A stretch of DNA of 64,000 nucleotides from Corynebacterium uberis (GTDB taxonomy: Bacteria; Actinomycetota; Actinomycetes; Mycobacteriales; Mycobacteriaceae). The stretch covers positions 744,001-808,000 of the forward strand of contig NZ_CP085051.1 in assembly GCF_020616335.1 (NCBI RefSeq). Reading direction: 5' to 3'. The notes beneath the pieces were generated by a model. It was not told the origin of the DNA. It ran no database searches and worked only from the letters and a program-made list of their open reading frames with translations. Positions 33,926 to 57,720 of this stretch are shown in pieces (position 1 is the first letter of the stretch; every line of letters starts with the position of its first letter). A program made the translations under genes and the position numbers.

Positions 33926-35569
33926 TTAGTCGTCTGCCACCAGCGGCTCGAGAGTGAACTCCGGGTGCTCCTTCTCGATGAACGCCAGCTTCCACTTATC
34001 CCCGAACAGCGCGATGAGCTCGCCGTCGGTGCGGGTAAACACCTCGACGCCGCGCTGCCGGCCCAACCCGGGGGCGGACTCCGCGTCGGTGCGCCTGGCC
34101 ACCTTATAGGGGATGGGGTCGATCTCCGTCTCCACGTTATATTCGGCGGCCATGCGGGCCTGCATGACCTCGAACTGCATGGGGCCTACGGCGGCCATGA
34201 CGGGGTTGGCATCGCCGCGGATCTCATTGCGCAGGATCTGCACCACGCCCTCTGCATCCAACTGCTCGAGGGCCTTGCGGAACTGCTTGTACTTGCCCAG
34301 AGACTTGGCACGCAGGATCCGGAAATGCTCAGGGGCAAACTGCGGCATGGGCGGGTACTGGATCTTGCGGCCGGTATACAGGGTGTCCCCGGGCGCCAGC
34401 GATCCGGCGTTGACCAGGCCCACAATATCGCCCGGGAAGGCCGTCTCCACCGTGGCGCGGGTGCGCCCAAAGACGGTCAGTGCATACTTGGTGGAAAAGC
34501 TGCGCCCGCTCTGGGCGTGGGTCACCTGCATGCCGCGGTCAAACTCCCCGGAGACCACGCGCATGAACGCCAAGGTGTCGCGGTGATTGCGGTCCATGCC
34601 CGCCTGGGCCTTGAACACGATGCCGGAAAAATCATCATCGACCTCCCGGCGGGTATCCATGGCGCTGGTGGCGGCCTCGATGACCTTCGGGTCCGCGTCG
34701 CGCCCGGCCGGCGAGGGCGCCAGCGCACACAGGGCGTCCAGGATCTGGTGGACACCAAAGTTCAGCATGGCGGAGGCAAAGATCACCGGGGAGGTCTCGC
34801 AGGCCTCGAAAAGCTCCTGGTCATGCACGGCGCCGTCGGCAGCCAGCAGTTCTGCCTCCTCAGCGGCGCGCTCCCACACCTCGCCCTCGCGCTCACGGGC
34901 CTGGTCAGGGGAGTAGTGCTCCTCCGGCGCGATGGTGGAACCGCCGGCCGTGCGGATGAAGTGGACATACTCATCGACCTCGCCGTCCGGGGTGACGCGG
35001 GCCAGGCCCCGGAAATCGCCGGCATCACCGACGGGCCAAAACAGCGGGGTGGGCTGCAGACCGATCTCACTGACAATCTCATCGACAAGCTCCAGCGGTT
35101 CGCGGCCCACCCGGTCCCACTTGTTGATCACCGTCACGATGGGCAACCCCCGGGACTTGCACACGCGGAAAAGCTGGAGGGTCTGGGGCTCGAGGCCTTT
35201 CGCGGCGTCGATAAGCATGACTGCCGCATCGACCGCCATGAGCACGCGGTAGGTGTCCTCGGAGAAGTCCGCGTGGCCGGGGGTGTCCACCAGGTTGATC
35301 ACAAAGGGGGCGCCCTCGTGGCCGCTAGGGGCGTATTCGAACTGCAAGGCTGACGAGGCGATGGAGATGCCGCGGTCCTTTTCCATCTCCATCCAGTCAG
35401 ACACAGTGGACTTGCGTCCCGCCTTACCGTGAACGGCACCGGCCTCAGAAATCATGTGGGCGTGCAGCGCCAAAGCCTCGGTGAGCGTGGATTTACCGGC
35501 GTCCGGGTGAGCGATGACGGCAAAGGTGCGCCGCAGTGCTGCCTCGTTCTTGGTCGCGGTCTCGCTCAT
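33926..35569 (-). CDS. prfC: Peptide chain release factor 3
   Basis: 547-residue translational GTPase. G1 AHPDAGKSTLTEAL, G2 region KDRGISI, G3 DTPGHADFSEDTYRVL, G4 INKWDR; then domains II (VVSGEFDRGMQVTHA) and III (GAVGPMQFEVMQARMAAEY, seen as AAVGPMQFEVMQ). It recycles RF1/RF2 after peptide release. Single gene, ATG 35569. It marks the conserved left side of the low-GC island that begins just upstream of it (35570). Confidence 0.95.
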   Translation of the reverse strand: MSETATKNEAALRRTFAVIAHPDAGKSTLTEALALHAHMISEAGAVHGKAGRKSTVSDWMEMEKDRGISIASSALQFEYAPSGHEGAPFVINLVDTPGHADFSEDTYRVLMAVDAAVMLIDAAKGLEPQTLQLFRVCKSRGLPIVTVINKWDRVGREPLELVDEIVSEIGLQPTPLFWPVGDAGDFRGLARVTPDGEVDEYVHFIRTAGGSTIAPEEHYSPDQAREREGEVWERAAEEAELLAADGAVHDQELFEACETSPVIFASAMLNFGVHQILDALCALAPSPAGRDADPKVIEAATSAMDTRREVDDDFSGIVFKAQAGMDRNHRDTLAFMRVVSGEFDRGMQVTHAQSGRSFSTKYALTVFGRTRATVETAFPGDIVGLVNAGSLAPGDTLYTGRKIQYPPMPQFAPEHFRILRAKSLGKYKQFRKALEQLDAEGVVQILRNEIRGDANPVMAAVGPMQFEVMQARMAAEYNVETEIDPIPYKVARRTDAESAPGLGRQRGVEVFTRTDGELIALFGDKWKLAFIEKEHPEFTLEPLVADD

Positions 35570-35743
35570 CGTCTCCCCTTCACGTGGTGGCTGGTGCCTG
35601 GTGCTTAGTTCTTGGCGCCTGACAGGCGCGCAACCTGAACAGGATACAGCACCTACCAGCGAAGTTGGAACCGGATCCAGTGCACGACTGCGAGGTGATG
35701 AGGGATGCAGGTGTTTGAATAGCGCAACGGCGGTGCAACTTGT
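35570..35743. other. Left junction of the low-GC island
   Basis: 174 bp without a gene between the prfC start and the last gene of the ABC operon. A GCGCCTGACAGGCGC hairpin (35617-35631) lies here. I found no obvious attachment-site duplicate at the right edge. The base composition changes from prfC-like to clearly more AT-rich across this stretch. Confidence 0.4.
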
Positions 35744-36343
35744 TTAGTTCTGGCCCCGTACCCACCGTAAGCACAATGCGGCGCTGGCGATTGCCACTAC
35801 TGCTTCTGCAATAGTCCAATGTGTGATTGTAAGTAGCATGTTCCAGTTTCTGGGGGATGCGGAGCTATCGTAGGCGAAGATGAGTAAGCCTAAAAGCACC
35901 GTGAGGGGAATAAACCAAGCGCGAATATTTCGGATGATACAACAACAAATTATGCAGATGCCTTGCCAGAATAACGTTCCTATCAGGGTTTGTGTTACAT
36001 CCTGTACCGAGAGGTTCACGCAGATGAAAAAACGAAGTAGACCCGCGATGCATACAACAATAACTAACTGAAGAATGCAGAATACGGACATTGCGAAAAG
36101 TCTGATACGGAGGAGGGAGGATGGAGCAACATCTTCCATCGCAGGGGCTACCGGATTGACGGTCGTGCCAGCCAGTCCGCCGAGAACCACGGGTAGCAGT
36201 CGAGCCAAGGGCGTGTCTAATGCATAGTTCGCGCTTGGGATTCCCCATGAAATGGGCATAATCCATAGCAACGACGTCGCAGCGAGCACAGAAAGTGCAA
36301 GCGCGTAACCTATGCGACGCGTTGAAAGGAAGGTAGTAATCAT
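35744..36343 (-). CDS. ABC exporter/immunity operon: small permease subunit
   Basis: 199 residues with about six helices (IGYALALSVLAATSLLWIMPI; LARLLPVVLGGLAGTTV; LFAMSVFCILQLVIVVCIAGLL; TLIGTLFWQGICIICCCII; FIPLTVLLGLLIFAY; TIAEAVVAIASAALCL). There is no signal peptide or soluble domain. ATG 36343 overlaps the stop of the ATPase gene (ATGA), so it is translationally coupled and surely a partner of it. Membrane-only partners of this size are common in lantibiotic-immunity (LanEFG-like) and drug ABC systems. Codon use and GC are lower than in flanking housekeeping genes. Confidence 0.8.
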   Translation of the reverse strand: MITTFLSTRRIGYALALSVLAATSLLWIMPISWGIPSANYALDTPLARLLPVVLGGLAGTTVNPVAPAMEDVAPSSLLRIRLFAMSVFCILQLVIVVCIAGLLRFFICVNLSVQDVTQTLIGTLFWQGICIICCCIIRNIRAWFIPLTVLLGLLIFAYDSSASPRNWNMLLTITHWTIAEAVVAIASAALCLRWVRGQN

Positions 36344-37101
36344 CGGACCGTCTTGGAAATGAGGCTGGTGTAGTTATGCTCCATTTGTTCCAGAGTCGTT
36401 GCGCCGCTAGCTCCCAAGACGCTAGCCGGACCTTGGTAACATAATTGCCCTGAATTGATGACCAATAAGTCATCCGCGCAGGACACCACATCTTCTACAA
36501 GATGGGTGCTCAATAGGACCGTGGGTGGATGCTGTTGGGAGTGGAGCTCTCTAAGTAAGGCTCTAAAATGTGCGCGTTGTTGTGGATCAAGTCCGGCAGT
36601 GGGTTCATCGACGATAATTAGCTGTGGATGTCCGGCAACGGCCGCTGCGATGCCCGCACGTTGACGCATTCCGCCGGAGAGAGACTTCAGCGCGGTATCA
36701 GAATCACCGCCTAGGCCAACAGTGTCGATGGCCTCTGTGGTGGCACGGTCCCGCAGCTTCGAAGGGTAGCAACGCATCCAGAGGCTATAAGAGACAAATT
36801 GACTCACGGTGAGAGACTCATCAGCGCTGAAATTTTGCGGTAAGTAGCCGAGATTGCGTCGGATTTTATCACGGTCACGCCGCACTCGTGGGTCTAGGCC
36901 CCGTATACGTAGTTCTCCTGAACTTGGTCTAGCGACGGTAGCGAGGATGGAAAGCAATGTCGTCTTTCCGGCTCCGTTAGGACCGAGTAGAGCGATAACC
37001 CTACCAGTTCTCAGTTCAAAGGTGATGTCCGTGAGAACCGGACTGTGGCGATACCCGCCAGACACCTTTGTGGCTTGTAGTGCTGGTGGGAGTGAGGTCA
37101 T
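36340..37101 (-). CDS. ABC exporter/immunity operon: ATP-binding subunit
   Basis: 253 residues. Walker A LLGPNGAGKTTLLSILA, Q-loop GYLPQNFSADESLTV, signature LKSLSGGMRQRAGIAAA, Walker B LIIVDEPTAGLDPQQ, and H-loop STHLVEDV. This is the BcrA/CcmA-type of ATPase used by peptide-exporting or peptide-resistance ABC systems. ATG 37101 overlaps the stop of the upstream permease gene (ATGA). The third gene overlaps its own stop in the same way, so three proteins are made from one tightly coupled mRNA. Confidence 0.93.
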   Translation of the reverse strand: MTSLPPALQATKVSGGYRHSPVLTDITFELRTGRVIALLGPNGAGKTTLLSILATVARPSSGELRIRGLDPRVRRDRDKIRRNLGYLPQNFSADESLTVSQFVSYSLWMRCYPSKLRDRATTEAIDTVGLGGDSDTALKSLSGGMRQRAGIAAAVAGHPQLIIVDEPTAGLDPQQRAHFRALLRELHSQQHPPTVLLSTHLVEDVVSCADDLLVINSGQLCYQGPASVLGASGATTLEQMEHNYTSLISKTVR

Positions 37102-38321
37102 GGCACAAGCTCCTCGGCATGAAAGGTACATGTGGTGAAATAGGTGGACAGGCTGGCAGCGAGACGGGCGCGAAGATCATCTGGGTCAAGTTTTTTTAAC
37201 TGTTCTGTCAGGCGGACACGGTTCGCATCGGCTGCTGGATCCTGTGTGGCGAAGCCGCGGAAGTCTATGTCACCATACAGGTAGTTGTTGATGAGAACAT
37301 AGAGTAGATCTGAGTCTTCTGACGGCGGACACGTGGTCCAGGGAAAAGCAGCGAGTAGACTCTGTGCGCCGCTCCAGGATGGGTTATCACCTCCGAAGGG
37401 GTATAAAACGATATTTTGGGGCGGTAGTGAAAGCCCGGGCTCGGCTGCTATGACCGGAGGAATGCTCATCTGGGCGGTTTCAATGAGCGATCGCTGCCTG
37501 GTGAGTTGCGCGTTGAGGGAGTCAAGTTTGAAAGCGTCTTCGGGCCACACACAGGCACGATCGTGTCGGGTGGTGGTGCATTCTGGAGACTTTGCCTGAG
37601 TTCGTGTCACCCCCACGGGCTGTACCCCACCGAAAAGAATAGTAATAATGACAAGGGTAGTGAGTGATACCCCGGCGACGCTCCGGTTGGTCATTGGTAT
37701 GGTTCTAGGGAGGGTGTAGAGTAAGCAAAGAGCTCCAATAAGAAGCGCTAAGCAAGTGCTTATAGCCGCCCAGGCCAGGGGATTAAGCGTCTCCCACGTG
37801 TTGACGATGCCTGGCAGGCGTACCAGGTAGATTCCGCTAAATAGGCCTAGGATGACGGCGAAGATGGCATTACGTATCATTCCCAAGTTCAGATGCGCGG
37901 CCACCGTGCCAATGCACAATGCAATTGCCCCCAATCCGAAACTTAGCCCGAGGTAGCGGTAGTCTAAATAACCCGGAGTATGGCGTACCCACGTAACAAC
38001 GAGGATTGCTCCACTTAAGAGGAACTGTGGTAGAAAAACTGATATCAGGTAGGTCTGGAGCACTTGCCTTGAGTGAACTGCACTCCAGCGTCGCGGAGTA
38101 TGCATCCATACCGGGCGTGCATTGGCACCCACGCGTATGGATTCCTGCCAGGAAGCACACGCAGCAATAACCGGCATAGCATACATAACGGGTGCGCATA
38201 TTGCTACCGTAGCCGCATTCAGGCTGTTGTGCCAGGATGTTGCGAGGGATAGCATGGTTGCTACCCATACTGCTGCCAAAAGTATTGCAGAAAAGAGCTG
38301 GCGCTTCCTTGCAGGCGTCAT
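37098..38321 (-). CDS. ABC exporter/immunity operon: large permease with extracytoplasmic C-terminal domain
   Basis: 407 residues. Six to seven helices (LFSAILLAAVWVATMLSLA; ATVAICAPVMYAMPVIAAC; TYLISVFLPQFLLSGAILVV; GLSFGLGAIALCIGTVAA; AIFAVILGLFSGIYLV; AAISTCLALLIGALCLL; VSLTTLVIITILFGGV) come first. A soluble C-terminal region of about 150 residues follows, with a CVWPED motif and several cysteines, presumably outside the membrane. I do not recognise a named family. ATG 38321 (MTPARKRQ) lies 8 bp after the reading frame of the candidate secreted peptide. It is the first transporter gene of the operon. Confidence 0.78.
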   Translation of the reverse strand: MTPARKRQLFSAILLAAVWVATMLSLATSWHNSLNAATVAICAPVMYAMPVIAACASWQESIRVGANARPVWMHTPRRWSAVHSRQVLQTYLISVFLPQFLLSGAILVVTWVRHTPGYLDYRYLGLSFGLGAIALCIGTVAAHLNLGMIRNAIFAVILGLFSGIYLVRLPGIVNTWETLNPLAWAAISTCLALLIGALCLLYTLPRTIPMTNRSVAGVSLTTLVIITILFGGVQPVGVTRTQAKSPECTTTRHDRACVWPEDAFKLDSLNAQLTRQRSLIETAQMSIPPVIAAEPGLSLPPQNIVLYPFGGDNPSWSGAQSLLAAFPWTTCPPSEDSDLLYVLINNYLYGDIDFRGFATQDPAADANRVRLTEQLKKLDPDDLRARLAASLSTYFTTCTFHAEELVP

Positions 38322-38329
38322 GTGCGGTT

Positions 38330-38643
38330 TTACTGCCAGTGAGTTTGTGCGGTGTGAACGTGGAAGAAGCAACCGGTTTGGGCGATTCCGAGTGACACCT
38401 GATTCTGATAGACCGGGACCCAACGGCTCATGATGGTGGGTTGAGCGGTGCAATGGGCGTGTGTGGCAACCTGTCCGGTTGCGGTAGCTGGGCGGCAGTT
38501 GCTCCATGCAGAAGCGCCCTGGATAAACGCTTGACACCCGTTGACGACTGAGCCCCGATAACCGACCGCTGCCATGGCTATCGGGGTGCAAGGGCTAGGG
38601 TAGCGAGGGTTGCGAGGCTCAGAGCCGATGCCATTTTGGGCAT
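38330..38643 (-). pseudogene. Secreted four-cysteine peptide precursor, split by a one-base frameshift (bacteriocin-like candidate)
   Basis: ATG 38643 has GAAAGGAT ideally spaced (7 nt) and encodes a classic signal peptide, MPKMASALSLATLATLALAP. The frame then hits TAG at 38580-38578. The next frame carries on without stop to 38330 with IAMA and then about 79 residues. Those hold four cysteines, rich in Gly, Ser, Ala and His (segments AVGYRGSVVNGCQAF, SAWSNC, ATHAHC, QTGCFF). Adding one base in the CCCC run just before the stop joins the frames and gives a signal peptidase site (IAMA before AVGYRG). The gene ends 8 bp before the ABC permease. Either the copy is inactivated, or the base is a sequencing error, or a frameshift is used. 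Bacteriocin or signalling peptide is inference. Confidence 0.6.
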
Positions 38644-38674
38644 GAGCATAATCCTTTCGTGTACAGAGGATGGT

Positions 38675-38691
38675 ATGTGCTATCCGCACAT
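38675..38691. promoter_or_regulatory. Inverted repeat upstream of the peptide-ABC operon
   Basis: ATGTGC-TATCC-GCACAT, perfect 6-bp arms, 32-48 bp before the peptide start codon. Its position fits an operator near the transcription start, or an mRNA leader hairpin. No regulator gene is present in the island. Confidence 0.45.
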
Positions 38692-39147
38692 CGCGTAGGA
38701 TACGTGGTCATCGGTGAGGCTGCCATAAGAGTTAGGGAAAATATTTCGGATTACACCCCAATATGGGGTAGGTCCCGTGAAGGTATGTATGGAGGCAAGG
38801 TCGTGTGTTCGCCATAAGGAATACTTAAAATTTATCCGGGATCCAAGGGTCTGTCTCTCCAGAAGGGTGAGCTGTGCGTACTCTTTGGGCGACCGCCCCA
38901 TCTTCATGCTGCAACGCCTCAGTTTCCAGCGTGTTCAGCACTCTTTTGACTATCTGAAGCTGATCAGGGCTCTCACAAAGTAACTACCAAGTCCCCGACC
39001 ATCAGAGGGGATACTGTAGTGGTCATGCTGGGGCTCCTTCATCGCCTGGATCGCTGTATTGGTCCGTTGGGCGGTTCAGGATCGATGTCGCGGAAGGGTG
39101 CGGGCAGGGGGCTAACAACTTTCAATCATGAAAATGTGTCCTTAAGC
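38692..39147. other. Gene-poor part of the island
   Basis: About 450 bp between the operon promoter and the ISL3 remnant. A minus-strand reading frame (38907-38680) begins MKMGRSPKEYAQLTLLERQTL. It faintly resembles the N-terminus of IS30-type transposases but does not continue as one. I see no intact gene. The sequence is probably decayed mobile DNA. Confidence 0.3.
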
Positions 39148-39171
39148 GGCTCTTCGCGTTTTAGAGTGCAT
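39148..39171. repeat. ISL3-type terminal inverted repeat (one end)
   Basis: GGCTCTTCGCGTTTTAGAGT and four further bases, overlapping the 3' end of the transposase remnant. It resembles the GGCCCTTC-starting 24-bp terminal repeats of corynebacterial ISL3 elements such as IS31831 (about 18 of 24, from memory). No matching second end was found, so the element is truncated. Confidence 0.5.
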
Positions 39172-39400
39172 TGATCGCGGCTTGCAGTCCTCCGGAGTGC
39201 AGCAGGGACCGCAAGCTGTAGTTCTCGAGGTTGCGGAACCCTAGGGCGATCCCCTGCAGGGGCTCAAGCGTCCATTGATCGCTTCAACTGGCCCATTGGA
39301 CGCTCCGATACCGCAAAACGCCAAAATGTCTTCGCGACGGCGATACAAGGTATGACCCAGCTGGCGGAGTTCATCTGTTGTGTTGTTAAATATTTTGCTC
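39161..39400 (-). pseudogene. ISL3-family transposase remnant (C-terminal end, frameshifted)
   Basis: On the minus strand the segment reads LRQLGHTLYRRREDILAF, then CGIGASNGPVEAINGRL. A one-base shift follows, then PLQGIALGFRNLENYSLR and SLLHSGGLQAAINAL to a TAA at 39163-39161. This is the typical ISL3 transposase C-terminus (VSNGPTEAINGRLE...GFRNLxNYxLRSLLH). The N-terminal two thirds are missing. It marks the right edge of the low-GC island and indicates past insertion and decay. Confidence 0.8.
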
Positions 39401-39547
39401 GAGTACTAGTTACGTGCTCTCTACGACGAAGCTCCCCTTCATTGCGAGCAGCCTTGATCAGGGCTACGCGAACGAATGGCTGTGGAACTCTACTAAAGAA
39501 TGCACTCCTAGGATGTCTTACACCGATTCTCTGGTGCGATGCACAAG

Positions 39548-40333
39548 TCACGCCGCCTTCCGGTACCGCGCCACCGCCAAGGGGGCGAAGACGACCGTAA
39601 AGATCACCGTACCGGCAAGAACGCCGGCGATGGGGTGCTGCATGGGCCAGGTATCCGGAATGGGGGCATCGCCGGTGTTGCCAAACAGGTCACGGGTGGC
39701 TTGGACCAGGGCAGAGACGGGGTTCCATTCGGCGAAGGCGCGCAAGAACCGGGGCATGGATTGGGAGGGCACAAACGCGTTGGACAGGAATGTCAGGGGG
39801 AACAGGACCATAAAGGACGCGCTGTTCATGGCTTCGGGGCTGCGCACAACAAGGCCCAGCAGAATCATCACCCAGGAAAACGCCCAGCAGAAGATGAGCA
39901 GCAGGCCCATGCCTGCCAAGAAATGCAGCCAGCCGTCTTCGAAGCGCCACCCCACGATTGCTCCGGTGAGCACCATGACGCTCAAGGTAAAGGCATTAAG
40001 CAGCAGGTCGGCGATGGTGCGCCCGACCACGACGGCGGAAGGGGCCATGGGCAGCGTTTTAAAGCGGTCGATCAGCCCCTTCTTTTTATCTTCGGCCATG
40101 AACATGCCGGATAGCGTGGAACCAAAGACGGCGGTTTGGACGAAAATGCCGGCCATGAGGAATTTGGTGTAGTCCGTGCCGGGCACGGTGATGGCGCCGC
40201 CGAAGACCTGGCTAAAGAGCAGCACAAACATGACGGGCTGGGCTACACCCCAGGTAAGCACGTCGGGGTTGCGCCGGAACCGGATGATATTGCGCAGCAC
40301 GATGGCGCGGACGTCGCTCAGCCAGTTGATCAT
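39548..40333 (-). CDS. ABC-2 type drug exporter permease (DrrB-like)
   Basis: 261 residues with six helices. The N-terminal arm reads WLSDVRAIVLRNIIRFRRNPDVLTWGVAQPVMFVLLFSQVFGG. The ABC-2 signature region is LVVRSPEAMNSASFMVLFPLTFLSNAFVPSQSMP. It forms, with the ATPase encoded just upstream (4-bp ATGA overlap), a DrrAB-type exporter of hydrophobic drugs or lipids. GC and codon use are again those of the host, so this pair is outside the island. Its 3' end lies about 150 bp from the ISL3 remnant. Confidence 0.92.
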   Translation of the reverse strand: MINWLSDVRAIVLRNIIRFRRNPDVLTWGVAQPVMFVLLFSQVFGGAITVPGTDYTKFLMAGIFVQTAVFGSTLSGMFMAEDKKKGLIDRFKTLPMAPSAVVVGRTIADLLLNAFTLSVMVLTGAIVGWRFEDGWLHFLAGMGLLLIFCWAFSWVMILLGLVVRSPEAMNSASFMVLFPLTFLSNAFVPSQSMPRFLRAFAEWNPVSALVQATRDLFGNTGDAPIPDTWPMQHPIAGVLAGTVIFTVVFAPLAVARYRKAA

Positions 40334-41322
40334 GAGCGGACTCCTTTGTTGGTGGCGTCAGCTTCTTCGGCGGGTTCGGCGGTCGCGTCATGGCCGGTGA
40401 GCTGTAAGAAGACGTCGTCGAGGGTGGGGCGGGTCAGGCCGGCGTCGTGCAGCGAGATTCCGTGTTGGCGCAGGCCGCGCAGCGCCTCTTCAAGGCTGTG
40501 GGCACCGTGGGTGGCCGGGGCGGTGATGGTGCGCTCGGCGACGTGGGGCTGTGTGCCGGTGGCATTGGCGATGATCTGGGCTGCCTTCATCGCAGCAGTG
40601 GCCTTCTCCACCGTGATGGAGATGCGCTGCCCGCCGACCTCGCGCTTGAGTTCGTCGGCAGTTCCTTCCGCGATGACGCGCCCGTGGTCGATGACGCTGA
40701 TGCTGTCTGCCAACTGGTCTGCCTCTTCGAGGTACTGGGTGGTCAGCAGCAGGGTGGTACCGGCCGCGACGCGCTGGCGGATGATGTCCCACAGGGCTAG
40801 GCGTGCTGCGGGGTCGAGGCCGGTGGTGGGTTCGTCAAGAAAGAGGATGCGTGGGTCATTGACCAGTGAGGCGGCCAGGTCTGCGCGCCGGCGCATGCCT
40901 CCGGAAAATCCCTTGACCGGCCGGTTTGCGGCGTCGGTGAGGTGGAAGGTTTCTAGCAGTTCATCGGCGCGGGCTTTGGCGCGGCGGTCGCCGAGGTGGA
41001 ACAGCCTGCCGATGAGGATGAGGTTTTCACGGGCGGACAGATCCTCATCGATGGTGGCGTATTGGCCGGATGCGCCGATGATGCTGCGCACGCGGTGGGC
41101 CTGGCGCACCACGTCGAACCCATCGATGGTGGCGGTGCCGGAGGTGGGGGTTATCAGGGTGGTCAGTACCTTGACGGTGGTGGTTTTTCCGGCGCCGTTG
41201 GGGCCAAGGAGCCCACGCACGGTGCCTTGTTCTACCTCGAGGTTCAGCCCGTCGAGGGCGTGGACCTCCCCGCTGGAGGTGCGGTAGACCTTGCGCACGT
41301 CGCGCAGTGAGATCAGTGACAT
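40330..41322 (-). CDS. ABC exporter ATP-binding protein (DrrA-like)
   Basis: 330 residues. Walker A LLGPNGAGKTTTVKVL, GQYATIDEDLSARENL, signature FSGGMRRRADLAASL, Walker B ILFLDEPTTGLDP, and the DrrA-type C-terminal domain (about residues 220-330, ending with LDDVFLQLTGHDA). TAGACT (41335-41330 on the minus strand) ends 7-8 nt before ATG 41322, indicating a leaderless mRNA. Substrate unknown; DrrAB relatives export daunorubicin, or phthiocerol lipids in mycobacteria. Confidence 0.93.
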   Translation of the reverse strand: MSLISLRDVRKVYRTSSGEVHALDGLNLEVEQGTVRGLLGPNGAGKTTTVKVLTTLITPTSGTATIDGFDVVRQAHRVRSIIGASGQYATIDEDLSARENLILIGRLFHLGDRRAKARADELLETFHLTDAANRPVKGFSGGMRRRADLAASLVNDPRILFLDEPTTGLDPAARLALWDIIRQRVAAGTTLLLTTQYLEEADQLADSISVIDHGRVIAEGTADELKREVGGQRISITVEKATAAMKAAQIIANATGTQPHVAERTITAPATHGAHSLEEALRGLRQHGISLHDAGLTRPTLDDVFLQLTGHDATAEPAEEADATNKGVRS

Positions 41323-41535
41323 GGTGTCACAGTCTACGCAAACCTAAGGGCGTTTAGCGTTCCAGCTGCTTCTCGACGTCTCTATGGCCCCGCCCGCAGC
41401 CACCTGCGGGAGGCAGGGGCTAACGGTTGAAGGTTAGTGGTGCCCGCTCACAGCCACAGCGCAGCAAAACCCCGCCACCCAAACATTAGAAGACAAGCAT
41501 GGGGAGCGGGGCAGGATAGGCCGGAGGGAATGTAT

Positions 41536-41826
41536 TTAGTGATCGTCCCAGTGGCCCTCGTGGGCGGCGTGGCGGTGGCCGTCATGGATGTAGTCCACGT
41601 GGTCGCCGTGGGGGACGGCGACGTGGCCACAGTTCGGGCCGTGCTCGTGGTCGTGGCCTTCGTGGACGTGGTGCTCTTGGGGCTCGCACTCGTCCCAGTG
41701 GCCCTCGTGCTCGCGGTGGAGGTGGCCGTCGTGGACGTAGTCGGTGTGGTCGCCGTGGGGGACGGCGACGTGGCCGCAGTTGGGGCCGTGGGTGTGGGTG
41801 TGGCCTTCGTGGGTGGTGTGGGTCAT
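41536..41826 (-). CDS. Histidine-rich metal-binding repeat protein
   Basis: 96 residues, about a quarter histidine, no signal peptide. Two near-identical halves each contain HGPNCGHVAVPHGDH, then DYVHDGH or DYIHDGH, and EGHWDE or EGHWDD. Each half has one Cys (PNCGH). The composition and duplicated Cys-His motifs imply cytosolic binding of zinc or a similar metal, for storage or buffering. AAAGGAG precedes ATG 41826. The promoter is AT-rich with TTGAAAACC, a possible Zur half-site. I know similar His-rich repeat proteins in corynebacteria but no assigned function. Confidence 0.85.
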   Translation of the reverse strand: MTHTTHEGHTHTHGPNCGHVAVPHGDHTDYVHDGHLHREHEGHWDECEPQEHHVHEGHDHEHGPNCGHVAVPHGDHVDYIHDGHRHAAHEGHWDDH

Positions 41827-41869
41827 GGTTTCTCCTTTGTGGAGTAGGGAACAACCTTCTTAAGCCCTG

Positions 41870-41897
41870 ACACTACTCATTTTTATTAGGTTTTCAA
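41870..41897 (-). promoter_or_regulatory. Promoter of the histidine-rich protein gene
   Basis: TTGAAA (41897-41892), 16-bp AT-rich spacer, TAGTGT (41875-41870). It leaves a leader of about 40 nt with a strong ribosome binding site (AAAGGAGAAACC before the ATG). The TTGAAAA stretch resembles half of a Zur box; the other half is not convincing. Confidence 0.5.
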
Positions 41898-42020
41898 TAA
41901 GGCCATTCCCGCAGGTAGAAGCGCTATTGAGCACCGTTTCCAACAAGCGGAAAACGGCAAGCTCACAGCCGGTGCGCTGCGTCGCCCTCGCCGCCGCGGC
42001 ATACCCCCATCCGGGGGTGG

Positions 42021-42689
42021 CTAGCTGGAGTGGATGACGTTTTGCGCCTTGGCCAAGCCCTCTGTTGCTACCAACCGGCAGGCGCGCGCGGCGGTGGTGA
42101 TAGCGGCGTCGAGAAGCGGACCCGAATCCACCGCCCCCAGCACCCAATCGATGACCGGAGTACCCTTCGGCGGGCGCGAAATACCGATGCGTACCCGCAG
42201 GTAATCGCGGGATCCCAGGTGCTCGCTAATGGACTTCAACCCGTTGTGGCCGTTCTCGCTGCCACCCTGGCGCAGCCGCACCGTGCCCAGTGGAAGGTCC
42301 AGCTCATCGTGGCAAACGATCACCCGCTCCGGCGGCAGGCCGAGTGCGCGGGCGGCCGGGCCCACCGCCTCGCCCGAGGTATTCATAAACGTTGTGGAGC
42401 GCATCACCACCGCCGTGGAATCACCGATGGGCACCACAGCGGCCTGCGCCGGCACGCCTGTGCACGCTGTGAGCACCTTGCCGTCGACCGCCAGCAGATC
42501 ATCAACGGCCATATAGCCCACATTGTGGCGGGTCGCGGCGTACTTCGCACCCGGGTTGCCCAGCCCCACGATCAGCCAGTCGGCGCTGACCTCACGCAGA
42601 TCCAGCGCAGCTGTCGGGCGCGCCGAGCCGGACGTGTCAGCCGCCGGGCGGCCAGAAACAAGGTCCTTGAACTTCTGAAGAAATCCCAC
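42021..42689 (-). CDS. pth: Peptidyl-tRNA hydrolase (paralogue 1)
   Basis: 222 residues. [25 protein letters not shown] with the catalytic His, STTFMNTSGEAV, CHDELDLPLGTVRLRQGGSENGHNGLKSI and RVRIGIGRPP-type RVRIGISRPPKG. It has an N-terminal extension of about 40 residues compared with the second copy at 46505-47056. It releases peptides from prematurely dissociated peptidyl-tRNA. GTG 42689 is chosen: GACAAT lies 8 nt upstream (leaderless type), and longer readings cross the divergent promoter of the nitronate monooxygenase gene. Confidence 0.93.
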   Translation of the reverse strand: MGFLQKFKDLVSGRPAADTSGSARPTAALDLREVSADWLIVGLGNPGAKYAATRHNVGYMAVDDLLAVDGKVLTACTGVPAQAAVVPIGDSTAVVMRSTTFMNTSGEAVGPAARALGLPPERVIVCHDELDLPLGTVRLRQGGSENGHNGLKSISEHLGSRDYLRVRIGISRPPKGTPVIDWVLGAVDSGPLLDAAITTAARACRLVATEGLAKAQNVIHSS

Positions 42690-56650: not shown

Positions 56651-56807
56651 GCGGCGGTGAACACTCGGTGACATGTCCATGAATTGCCCTAGCTACTATA
56701 GACAAGTGCCGTGCGGTGTCGGACAATAAGACGAACGACGCCGCATGAAGGGGCGTCGATAAGCACACTCAGCAACCCCTGCTCCCCGCGAAAGGCCGGA
56801 ACACCAC

Positions 56808-57720
56808 ATGTCCCACACCCGCTGGCTGACCGGATGCCTGGCACTGGCAACCACCACAGCACTAGCCAGCTGTGCATCAACACCCACCGACGCGCCCACC
56901 ACCATCACCTTTGCCGCCGTTCCCGCGGAATCTGCCATGAGCTTGGAACAAAGCTTTGGGCACCTCACAGCCCTATTGGAAAAGGAAACCGGTGCGAAGG
57001 TGGAATTTCACAACGCATCGGACTACGCCGCCGTCATCGAAGGCATGCGCGCAGGCCAGATCGATATAGCCTCACTCGGGCCGTTTTCCTACGTCATTGC
57101 CAAAGGCACCGGGATGGACTTAAACCCAGTAGCCGCCGCCTCCCACGCCAAGGACCAGGCGCCCTCCTACACTTCCCGGGCCTACGTGAAAACAGGCTCC
57201 GCCATCCAGTCGCTCAAACAGGCCGAAGGTCACCGGGTCTGTTTGGTGGACAAGGCGTCTACCTCCGGATACCTCGTCCCCCTCAAAGGTTTCATGGACG
57301 CACAGATAGACCCCAACACCGGCATTGAGCAGGTGCTCAGCGGTGGGCACGACGCCGCGCTGCTGGGTCTGAAATCCGGCAACTGCGATGTCGCCTTCGC
57401 GCATGACGCCATGGCCACCACGCTGGAAAAGTCCGGGCAGTTACGCGCAGGTGAGATCCAGGAGATCTGGAAGTCAGAACCCATCCCGGAAGACCCCTTG
57501 ACCGTGAATAATTCCACGCTGACCCCACAGCTGCGCGAGAAGATCACCACCGTGCTGCGCGAACAGGCCACCAAGCCGGCCTTAGTTGAGGCGGGAATCT
57601 GCCCGAGCGAACACGACTGCGAGCTGCCGGAAGAAACCGAGTATGGCTACCTGCCGGTTGACGATTCCTCCTTCGACCCCATCCGTGACCTGTGCACGAC
57701 AACCAAGGCGGAGGCGTGCC

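Follow-up and report, generated by a model that had tools for sequence, protein, structure and literature searches.

Peptides of the lactococcin 972 type fold as a beta-sandwich, bind lipid II and are thought to be exported by the general secretory (Sec) route, according to the sections of PMC11796350 that deal with them. The membrane protein and ATPase encoded alongside are presumed there to serve immunity and transport, a function given as unverified, and strains without a functional peptide are known. Actifensins, as outlined in PMC6989792, have mature peptides of 37 residues with six cysteines and a GA-type leader, and a protease, LuxR and other proteins are encoded in their operon. The sections of PMC8003753 on BceAB-type lantibiotic resistance in Corynebacterium describe a single permease of 10 helices that in most cases carries an FtsX motif and often comes with a two-component system; between helices 7 and 8 the classic BceAB permease has an outside domain, which is lacking in Corynebacterium. 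Here we analyse a low-GC operon in a 64,000-nucleotide stretch of the Corynebacterium uberis genome (assembly GCF_020616335.1, NZ_CP085051.1, positions 744,001 to 808,000; the window), which contains a secreted-peptide gene and three genes of an ATP-binding cassette (ABC) system. On balance, we favour the reading that the peptide of this cassette is an unmodified bacteriocin, secreted by Sec, mostly cationic and built as a disulfide-stabilised beta-sandwich, and that the ABC transporter is dedicated to protecting the producer from it.

The four genes lie on the minus strand between prfC and a DrrAB-like gene pair, in the order peptide, large permease (37098..38321, 407 amino acids), ABC ATPase (36340..37101, 253 amino acids) and small permease (35744..36343, 199 amino acids). 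Eight base pairs (bp) separate the peptide stop codon from the permease start, and within the transporter set each gene overlaps the next by the 4 bp ATGA (37098-37101 and 36340-36343). Gene order and overlaps are thus as the first-pass annotation of this sequence had described them. Scans of the operon for promoters and terminators gave nothing above chance.

The peptide gene, by comparison, had been read from a joined sequence, and this joined peptide proved to be a reconstruction, as the window has no single peptide open reading frame (ORF). An ATG with an AAAGGA-like ribosome-binding site just upstream opens a 23-codon ORF (38578..38649, minus strand) that encodes the opening part of a signal peptide and stops in its hydrophobic part. 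The mature domain continues in a frame different from that of the start ATG. This second piece (38330..38587, minus strand) encodes the end of the signal peptide and a four-cysteine mature domain with the C-terminus HTAQTHWQ. The pieces were searched separately, unjoined, and the second has 51% identity to the intact peptide of C. oculi.

The mature domain has about 78-80 residues and four conserved cysteines, and structure prediction suggests an all-beta fold, putatively a beta-sandwich. In intact members we recognised by eye a Sec signal peptide with n-, h- and c-regions and an A-x-A-like site; in the window copy the signal frame is broken. The peptide would represent a family without a Pfam or NCBIfam model, rich in cysteine and predicted to form a beta-sandwich. 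A sequence search of the PDB gave nothing convincing for it. The C. oculi peptide scored 20.5 bits against HIPIP (below the cut-off of 22; E 6e-4), but neither this nor Formosin D (9hkj) was taken as kinship; the like-named paper on Formosin D concerns diterpenes.

The ATPase matches PF00005 (E 3.5e-32), in line with the BcrA-type assignment made earlier. Its top NCBIfam match is the drrA subfamily, under the cut-off, and we regard it as BcrA/DrrA-like; its PADLOC matches are generic ATPase matches. Neither window permease matches any Pfam or NCBIfam family at E <= 1, and so neither an ABC-2 membrane model nor FtsX was recovered. The small permease has about five hydrophobic stretches. The large one has seven, followed by a 174-residue C-terminal part containing C-x8-C-V-W-P-E-D and a third conserved cysteine, which supports the proposed large domain outside the cell. 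A PDB sequence search was unconvincing for this permease as well, and its structure prediction reached a pLDDT (predicted local distance difference test) of 50. As a single query against 5.8 billion proteins it recovered only itself among the best 8000 candidates, and its profile recovered one further protein within the same number; the peptide search likewise covered the best 8000 candidates, and such searches are no proof of rarity. For the small permease of C. oculi, a score of 13.5 bits against GldF was likewise not accepted as kinship.

With the C. oculi peptide as query, ten of 242 Corynebacterium genomes gave matches at E <= 0.001, and six were accepted: the window's own genome (G000), C. 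oculi (G166), C. sp. zg-331 (G202), G229, G145 and G092. The peptide protein of G145 is recorded for C. lowii. The matches in G075, G061, G143 and G074 were dropped as weak (E 3e-4 to 9e-4), that in G074 being another protein of 542 residues. A further six of 213 genomes of another family, the Actinomycetaceae, encode the peptide, always followed by permease, ATPase and small permease.

All three transporter genes follow in this order in 10 of the 12 peptide-bearing genomes. The proposed layout of a small cysteine-containing peptide and its ABC system therefore recurs as a unit, even though the peptide gene is broken in the window itself. Damage was found in three of these units: in G229 it affects the permease frame, in G853 two transporter frames are split, and in G757 an IS21-like pair (identified by eye) interrupts the unit ahead of the small permease. 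G092 retains only a broken, truncated permease. G145 (L073:9168-9488) has an intact peptide gene alone, with no transporter genes beside it, and its peptide is acidic instead of basic. The ORFs neighbouring the G145 gene, named by eye, resemble a very long repeat-rich surface protein and an oligopeptide transporter.

Within the genus, the permease was found in G000, G166, G202 and G229 and as a fragment in G092; the small permease gave strong matches in the first four, and its remaining matches have E >= 0.0019. Permease matches in six genomes were dropped (E 4e-5 to 0.01): those in G034, G254, G253 and G017 are other proteins when the frames are read by eye, G129 gave no 380-residue ORF, and G144 was judged by tblastn alone. 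A pattern scan of genome contigs with the peptide profile, a short-pattern method and not exhaustive, found three loci. One of these, in an Actinomycetaceae metagenome genome, repeats the four-gene arrangement, order included, with other neighbours and an operon GC of 0.493 versus 0.56. No relative was found in viral contigs (peptide profile) or plasmids (C. oculi peptide), and 396 sampled genomes of the phylum, with the best 12 candidates per genome where shown, yielded only G000.

The permease profile reaches further than the peptide, with matches in 20 of the 213 Actinomycetaceae genomes. Six of these have this peptide, two another secreted two-cysteine peptide and one a doubtful two-cysteine ORF; two loci are cut by a contig edge (G850 and G857), and in nine no peptide was seen. 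The last group includes G855, where the permease is shortened, and G739 and G740, which have the transporter genes. The nine distant permease genomes (E 8e-31 to 3.5e-6) comprise G686 and G687 with the other two-cysteine peptide, G746, whose two-cysteine ORF has a doubtful signal, and six with none. The signal-peptide scan behind these counts is crude, and recovered the peptide in three of three positive controls. The first-pass annotation had held that regular occurrence of the permease and ATPase without a small secreted peptide gene would speak against its interpretation. No such occurrence was found in the close group, but among distant kin it is partly what we see, and these 9 of 20 genomes weigh against the bacteriocin and self-protection interpretation.

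The peptide-less transporters lend weight to a different proposal, in which the ABC system is a dedicated exporter of the peptide, or exports a small molecule with the peptide as a structural or binding accessory. ABC-2 type exporters frequently adjoin the genes of their cargo, and the operon coupling would fit this as well. However, the precursor has a Sec-type signal peptide, no double-glycine type leader was recognised by eye, and no peptidase domain appears among the best 25 of the 27 Pfam matches of the ATPase. We consider an export function unlikely.

Other units of similar build were also found. G687 (L162:5069-5407, minus strand) and G686 (L166:4893-5231, minus strand) encode a secreted two-cysteine peptide followed by an ATPase, a CVWPED-type permease and a small permease. 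A profile comparison of the two-cysteine with the four-cysteine peptides gave Prob 73.5 and E 3e-5, with the signal peptide included and two sequences on one side. In C. oculi (L049:1127-4084) and G229 (L050:2552-5117) a second operon beside prfC, convergent to the main one, encodes an ATPase and two permeases. The C. oculi copy is preceded by a secreted two-cysteine peptide ORF; the large permease of this second operon shares the outside C...C pattern. Taken together with the peptide-less relatives, the two-cysteine units and the second operon look like members of a wider class of peptide-plus-ABC units in which the peptide has been partly replaced or lost.

If the cassette is a bacteriocin with its own protection, as we favour, the general secretion route would export the precursor independently of the ABC system, via the ordinary signal peptide and A-x-A-like site deduced from the sequence. 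The mature four-cysteine, all-beta domain of about 78 residues (a predicted fold, with disulfides assumed) would act outside on neighbouring Gram-positive cells, perhaps on a cell-wall precursor by analogy with lactococcin 972. The outside, cysteine-containing C-terminal domain of the large permease may catch the peptide near the membrane, and the ATPase and two permeases would then expel or dislodge it. The same outside domain and the close linkage of peptide and permease would also suit a signal or sensor, in which the Sec-secreted peptide is read back by the permease and the ABC system is a receptor or importer. No gene for a regulator, kinase or sigma factor was noticed repeatedly next to the unit, although ORF lists were read by eye and unsystematically, and an 80-residue cysteine-rich fold is large for a pheromone. 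Signalling is in our judgement quite unlikely.

Half of the peptide genes lack an intact frame. The frame is open from a plausible start in 6 of 12 (G166, G145, G660, G756, G757 and G851). It is broken in the signal-peptide part in five (G000, G202, G229, G092 and G853, with the first stop at codons 24, 6, 13, 12 and 12, respectively), and G856 has a stop in the mature part at codon 77. The position of each break is known only as between the start and the first stop. Sequencing or assembly error may have caused the break in the window. For G229, a second database record of the peptide (P0005, which comes from a 1266-bp contig and differs at one residue; a protein record only) also starts after the break, which speaks against such an origin there.

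All five signal-peptide breaks go in the same direction, which by chance would occur about 1 in 16 times if the directions were equal and is weak alone. Runs of four to seven equal bases lie inside the break interval in four of these five genes, and in zg-331 the break falls at the operon's longest such run, directly followed by the stop codon. A special role of such runs in causing the breaks was rejected: runs of at least four also occur within the first 75 bases of each of the six intact genes, the broken G853 gene has no such run, and a 7-base run, the longest elsewhere in the window operon, is unbroken.

In the window, the frame of the peptide gene is interrupted within the signal peptide while the three transporter frames are whole, and for this reason the locus is now probably immunity-only or switched off. 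It is possible, if less to be expected, that the window copy is instead a decaying relic that lost its peptide by chance and whose transporter has no current role. This would account for the broken frame and the neighbouring insertion sequence (IS) scar. It would also agree with the damage to units in G092, G229, G853, G855 and G757, and with the runs in the intact genes, given which the breaks need no special cause. On the other hand, decay has also struck transporter genes in G092 and G853, whereas all three are whole in the window. In addition, the ratio of nonsynonymous to synonymous substitution (dN/dS) is low for both the mature peptide and the transporter among G166, G202 and G229. For the mature part, dN is 0.09 and dS 0.52 between G166 and G229, and dN is 0.15 with dS near saturation between G166 and G202. 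The breaks are therefore either recent or have not abolished function. The plain explanation is that the peptide was lost and immunity retained. A frame-switched weapon, produced through slippage in replication, transcription or translation by a minority of otherwise immune cells or at a low level, is very unlikely; its basis would be the five breaks in one direction, the run at the zg-331 break and the purifying selection on the mature domain.

The base composition of the operon is foreign to its surroundings, and the low-GC island reported by the first-pass annotation is well supported. GC is 0.538 over 35570-39540, and that of the operon (0.539) is below all 541 overlapping stretches of equal length taken from the rest of the window (mean 0.660, sd 0.028, minimum 0.599). 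GC at third codon positions (GC3) is 0.51-0.55 in the three transporter genes versus 0.80-0.85 in prfC and drrAB; one other ORF among those mechanically listed for the window (56711-57328) has an equally low GC3 (0.53). The IS remnant noted at the border derives from the 3' end of a transposase gene of the ISL3 family (39164..39405, minus strand; PF01610 E 5e-5 over 39244-39405). An overlapping piece in another frame (39164-39283) matches nothing and was assigned by eye. For the segment 38690-39540, the 2.53-Mb genome gave no match other than the segment itself.

The site is delimited by prfC (peptide release factor 3; 33926..35569, minus strand), matched in 241 of 242 genomes of the genus, and by pth (peptidyl-tRNA hydrolase; 42021..42602, minus strand, start approximate). 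We compared 12 regions from 12 Corynebacterium genomes, three of them peptide carriers (G145, G092 and G202); the backbone consists of prfC, pth and a nitronate monooxygenase-like gene. Across Corynebacterium, the interval between prfC and pth (35570-42020 in the window) is a site of variable insertion whose cargo differs by species and is often of ABC type. In the window it also contains the DrrB-like permease and DrrA-like ATPase genes (39548..41322, minus strand), which have high GC3. Between the drrA-like gene and pth, a small His-rich protein with two HGPNCGHVAVPHGDH-type repeats (41536-41826, minus strand) is possibly metal-binding.

The operon lies within the interval in the window, C. 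oculi and G229. In zg-331 it adjoins pth in the direction of a contig end, and prfC is near the start of another contig, which fits the same site; the peptides of G092 and G145 are located away from prfC. In G256, G172 and G107, pth adjoins prfC directly, the match ends being 25-34 bp apart. Together with the foreign composition and the IS scar, this makes the acquisition proposed earlier likely, although the same site is occupied in C. oculi and G229. Probably, this part of the genus gained the unit at a hot spot. A tree of the ATPases places the window copy with the three other Corynebacterium copies (96/95). Operon GC is 0.54 in the window versus 0.61-0.63 in these three, and this low GC suggests a later exchange of the window copy from a lower-GC donor.

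If our reading is correct, corynebacteria and Actinomycetaceae have a new peptide family of Cys-rich beta-sandwich bacteriocins, and a type of self-protection transporter that bears its own outside domain. The three transporter genes alone should then protect, and with the peptide-ABC pair one could test cleanly how a folded protein bacteriocin is recognised by an ABC system. Repeated breaks of the peptide with the pump kept, if confirmed in living strains, would show how producers become immune non-producers, or how the gene is switched.

Among known transporters, ABC-2 exporters with a BcrA-like ATPase agree in the ATPase (PF00005 and, as given above, no peptidase) but not in their permease models. 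LanFEG/BcrABC-type self-protection systems combine one BcrA-like ATPase with two permeases adjoining the peptide gene, which is the build found here; the differences are the 174-residue C-terminal outside part of the large permease and the lack of a permease model match at E <= 1. BceAB-type systems, as far as PMC8003753 describes them, are likewise ABC systems whose presumed substrates are antimicrobial peptides, and an outside domain is present in their classic type, whereas here there are two permeases without an FtsX match and the outside part is C-terminal. Actifensins share a disulfide-rich secreted peptide with adjoining permease, ATPase and permease genes, a likeness by description in PMC6989792; the peptide here has about 78-80 residues and four cysteines, against 37 and six. 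No description of this peptide or unit was found in the open-licence literature on lactococcin 972, actifensin, Corynebacterium or Actinomyces bacteriocins, C. oculi or bacteriocin phase variation.

Lactococcin 972-like systems (PF09683; streptococcin B), as presented in PMC11796350, share a Sec-type signal and a secreted peptide, 60-80 residues long, whose gene precedes those of a membrane protein and an ATPase of presumed immunity. Both groups also include peptide-defective strains. The beta-sandwich reported there (PMC11796350; compare 2lgn) may be a further likeness, such a fold being predicted here. Nevertheless, PF09683 did not match the window fragment, the C. oculi peptide or the G145 peptide at E <= 1. 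It occurs in 14 of 86 sampled genomes of the genus (13 over the cut-off), a sample without G202 and G092, and not in G000; in G166, G229 and G145 it was found only at places other than this peptide. Profile kinship to 15 Corynebacterium PF09683 proteins was rejected (Prob 22, mainly over the signal peptide). The PF09683 loci of G229 and G166 (L185, L186) encode a long membrane protein (ORFs of 704 and, as called, 567 amino acids) and another ATPase, whereas the unit here has four conserved cysteines, two separate smaller permeases and a BcrA/DrrA-like ATPase. The lactococcin 972 type is the closest working parallel to the C. uberis cassette, yet judged by sequence not the same family.

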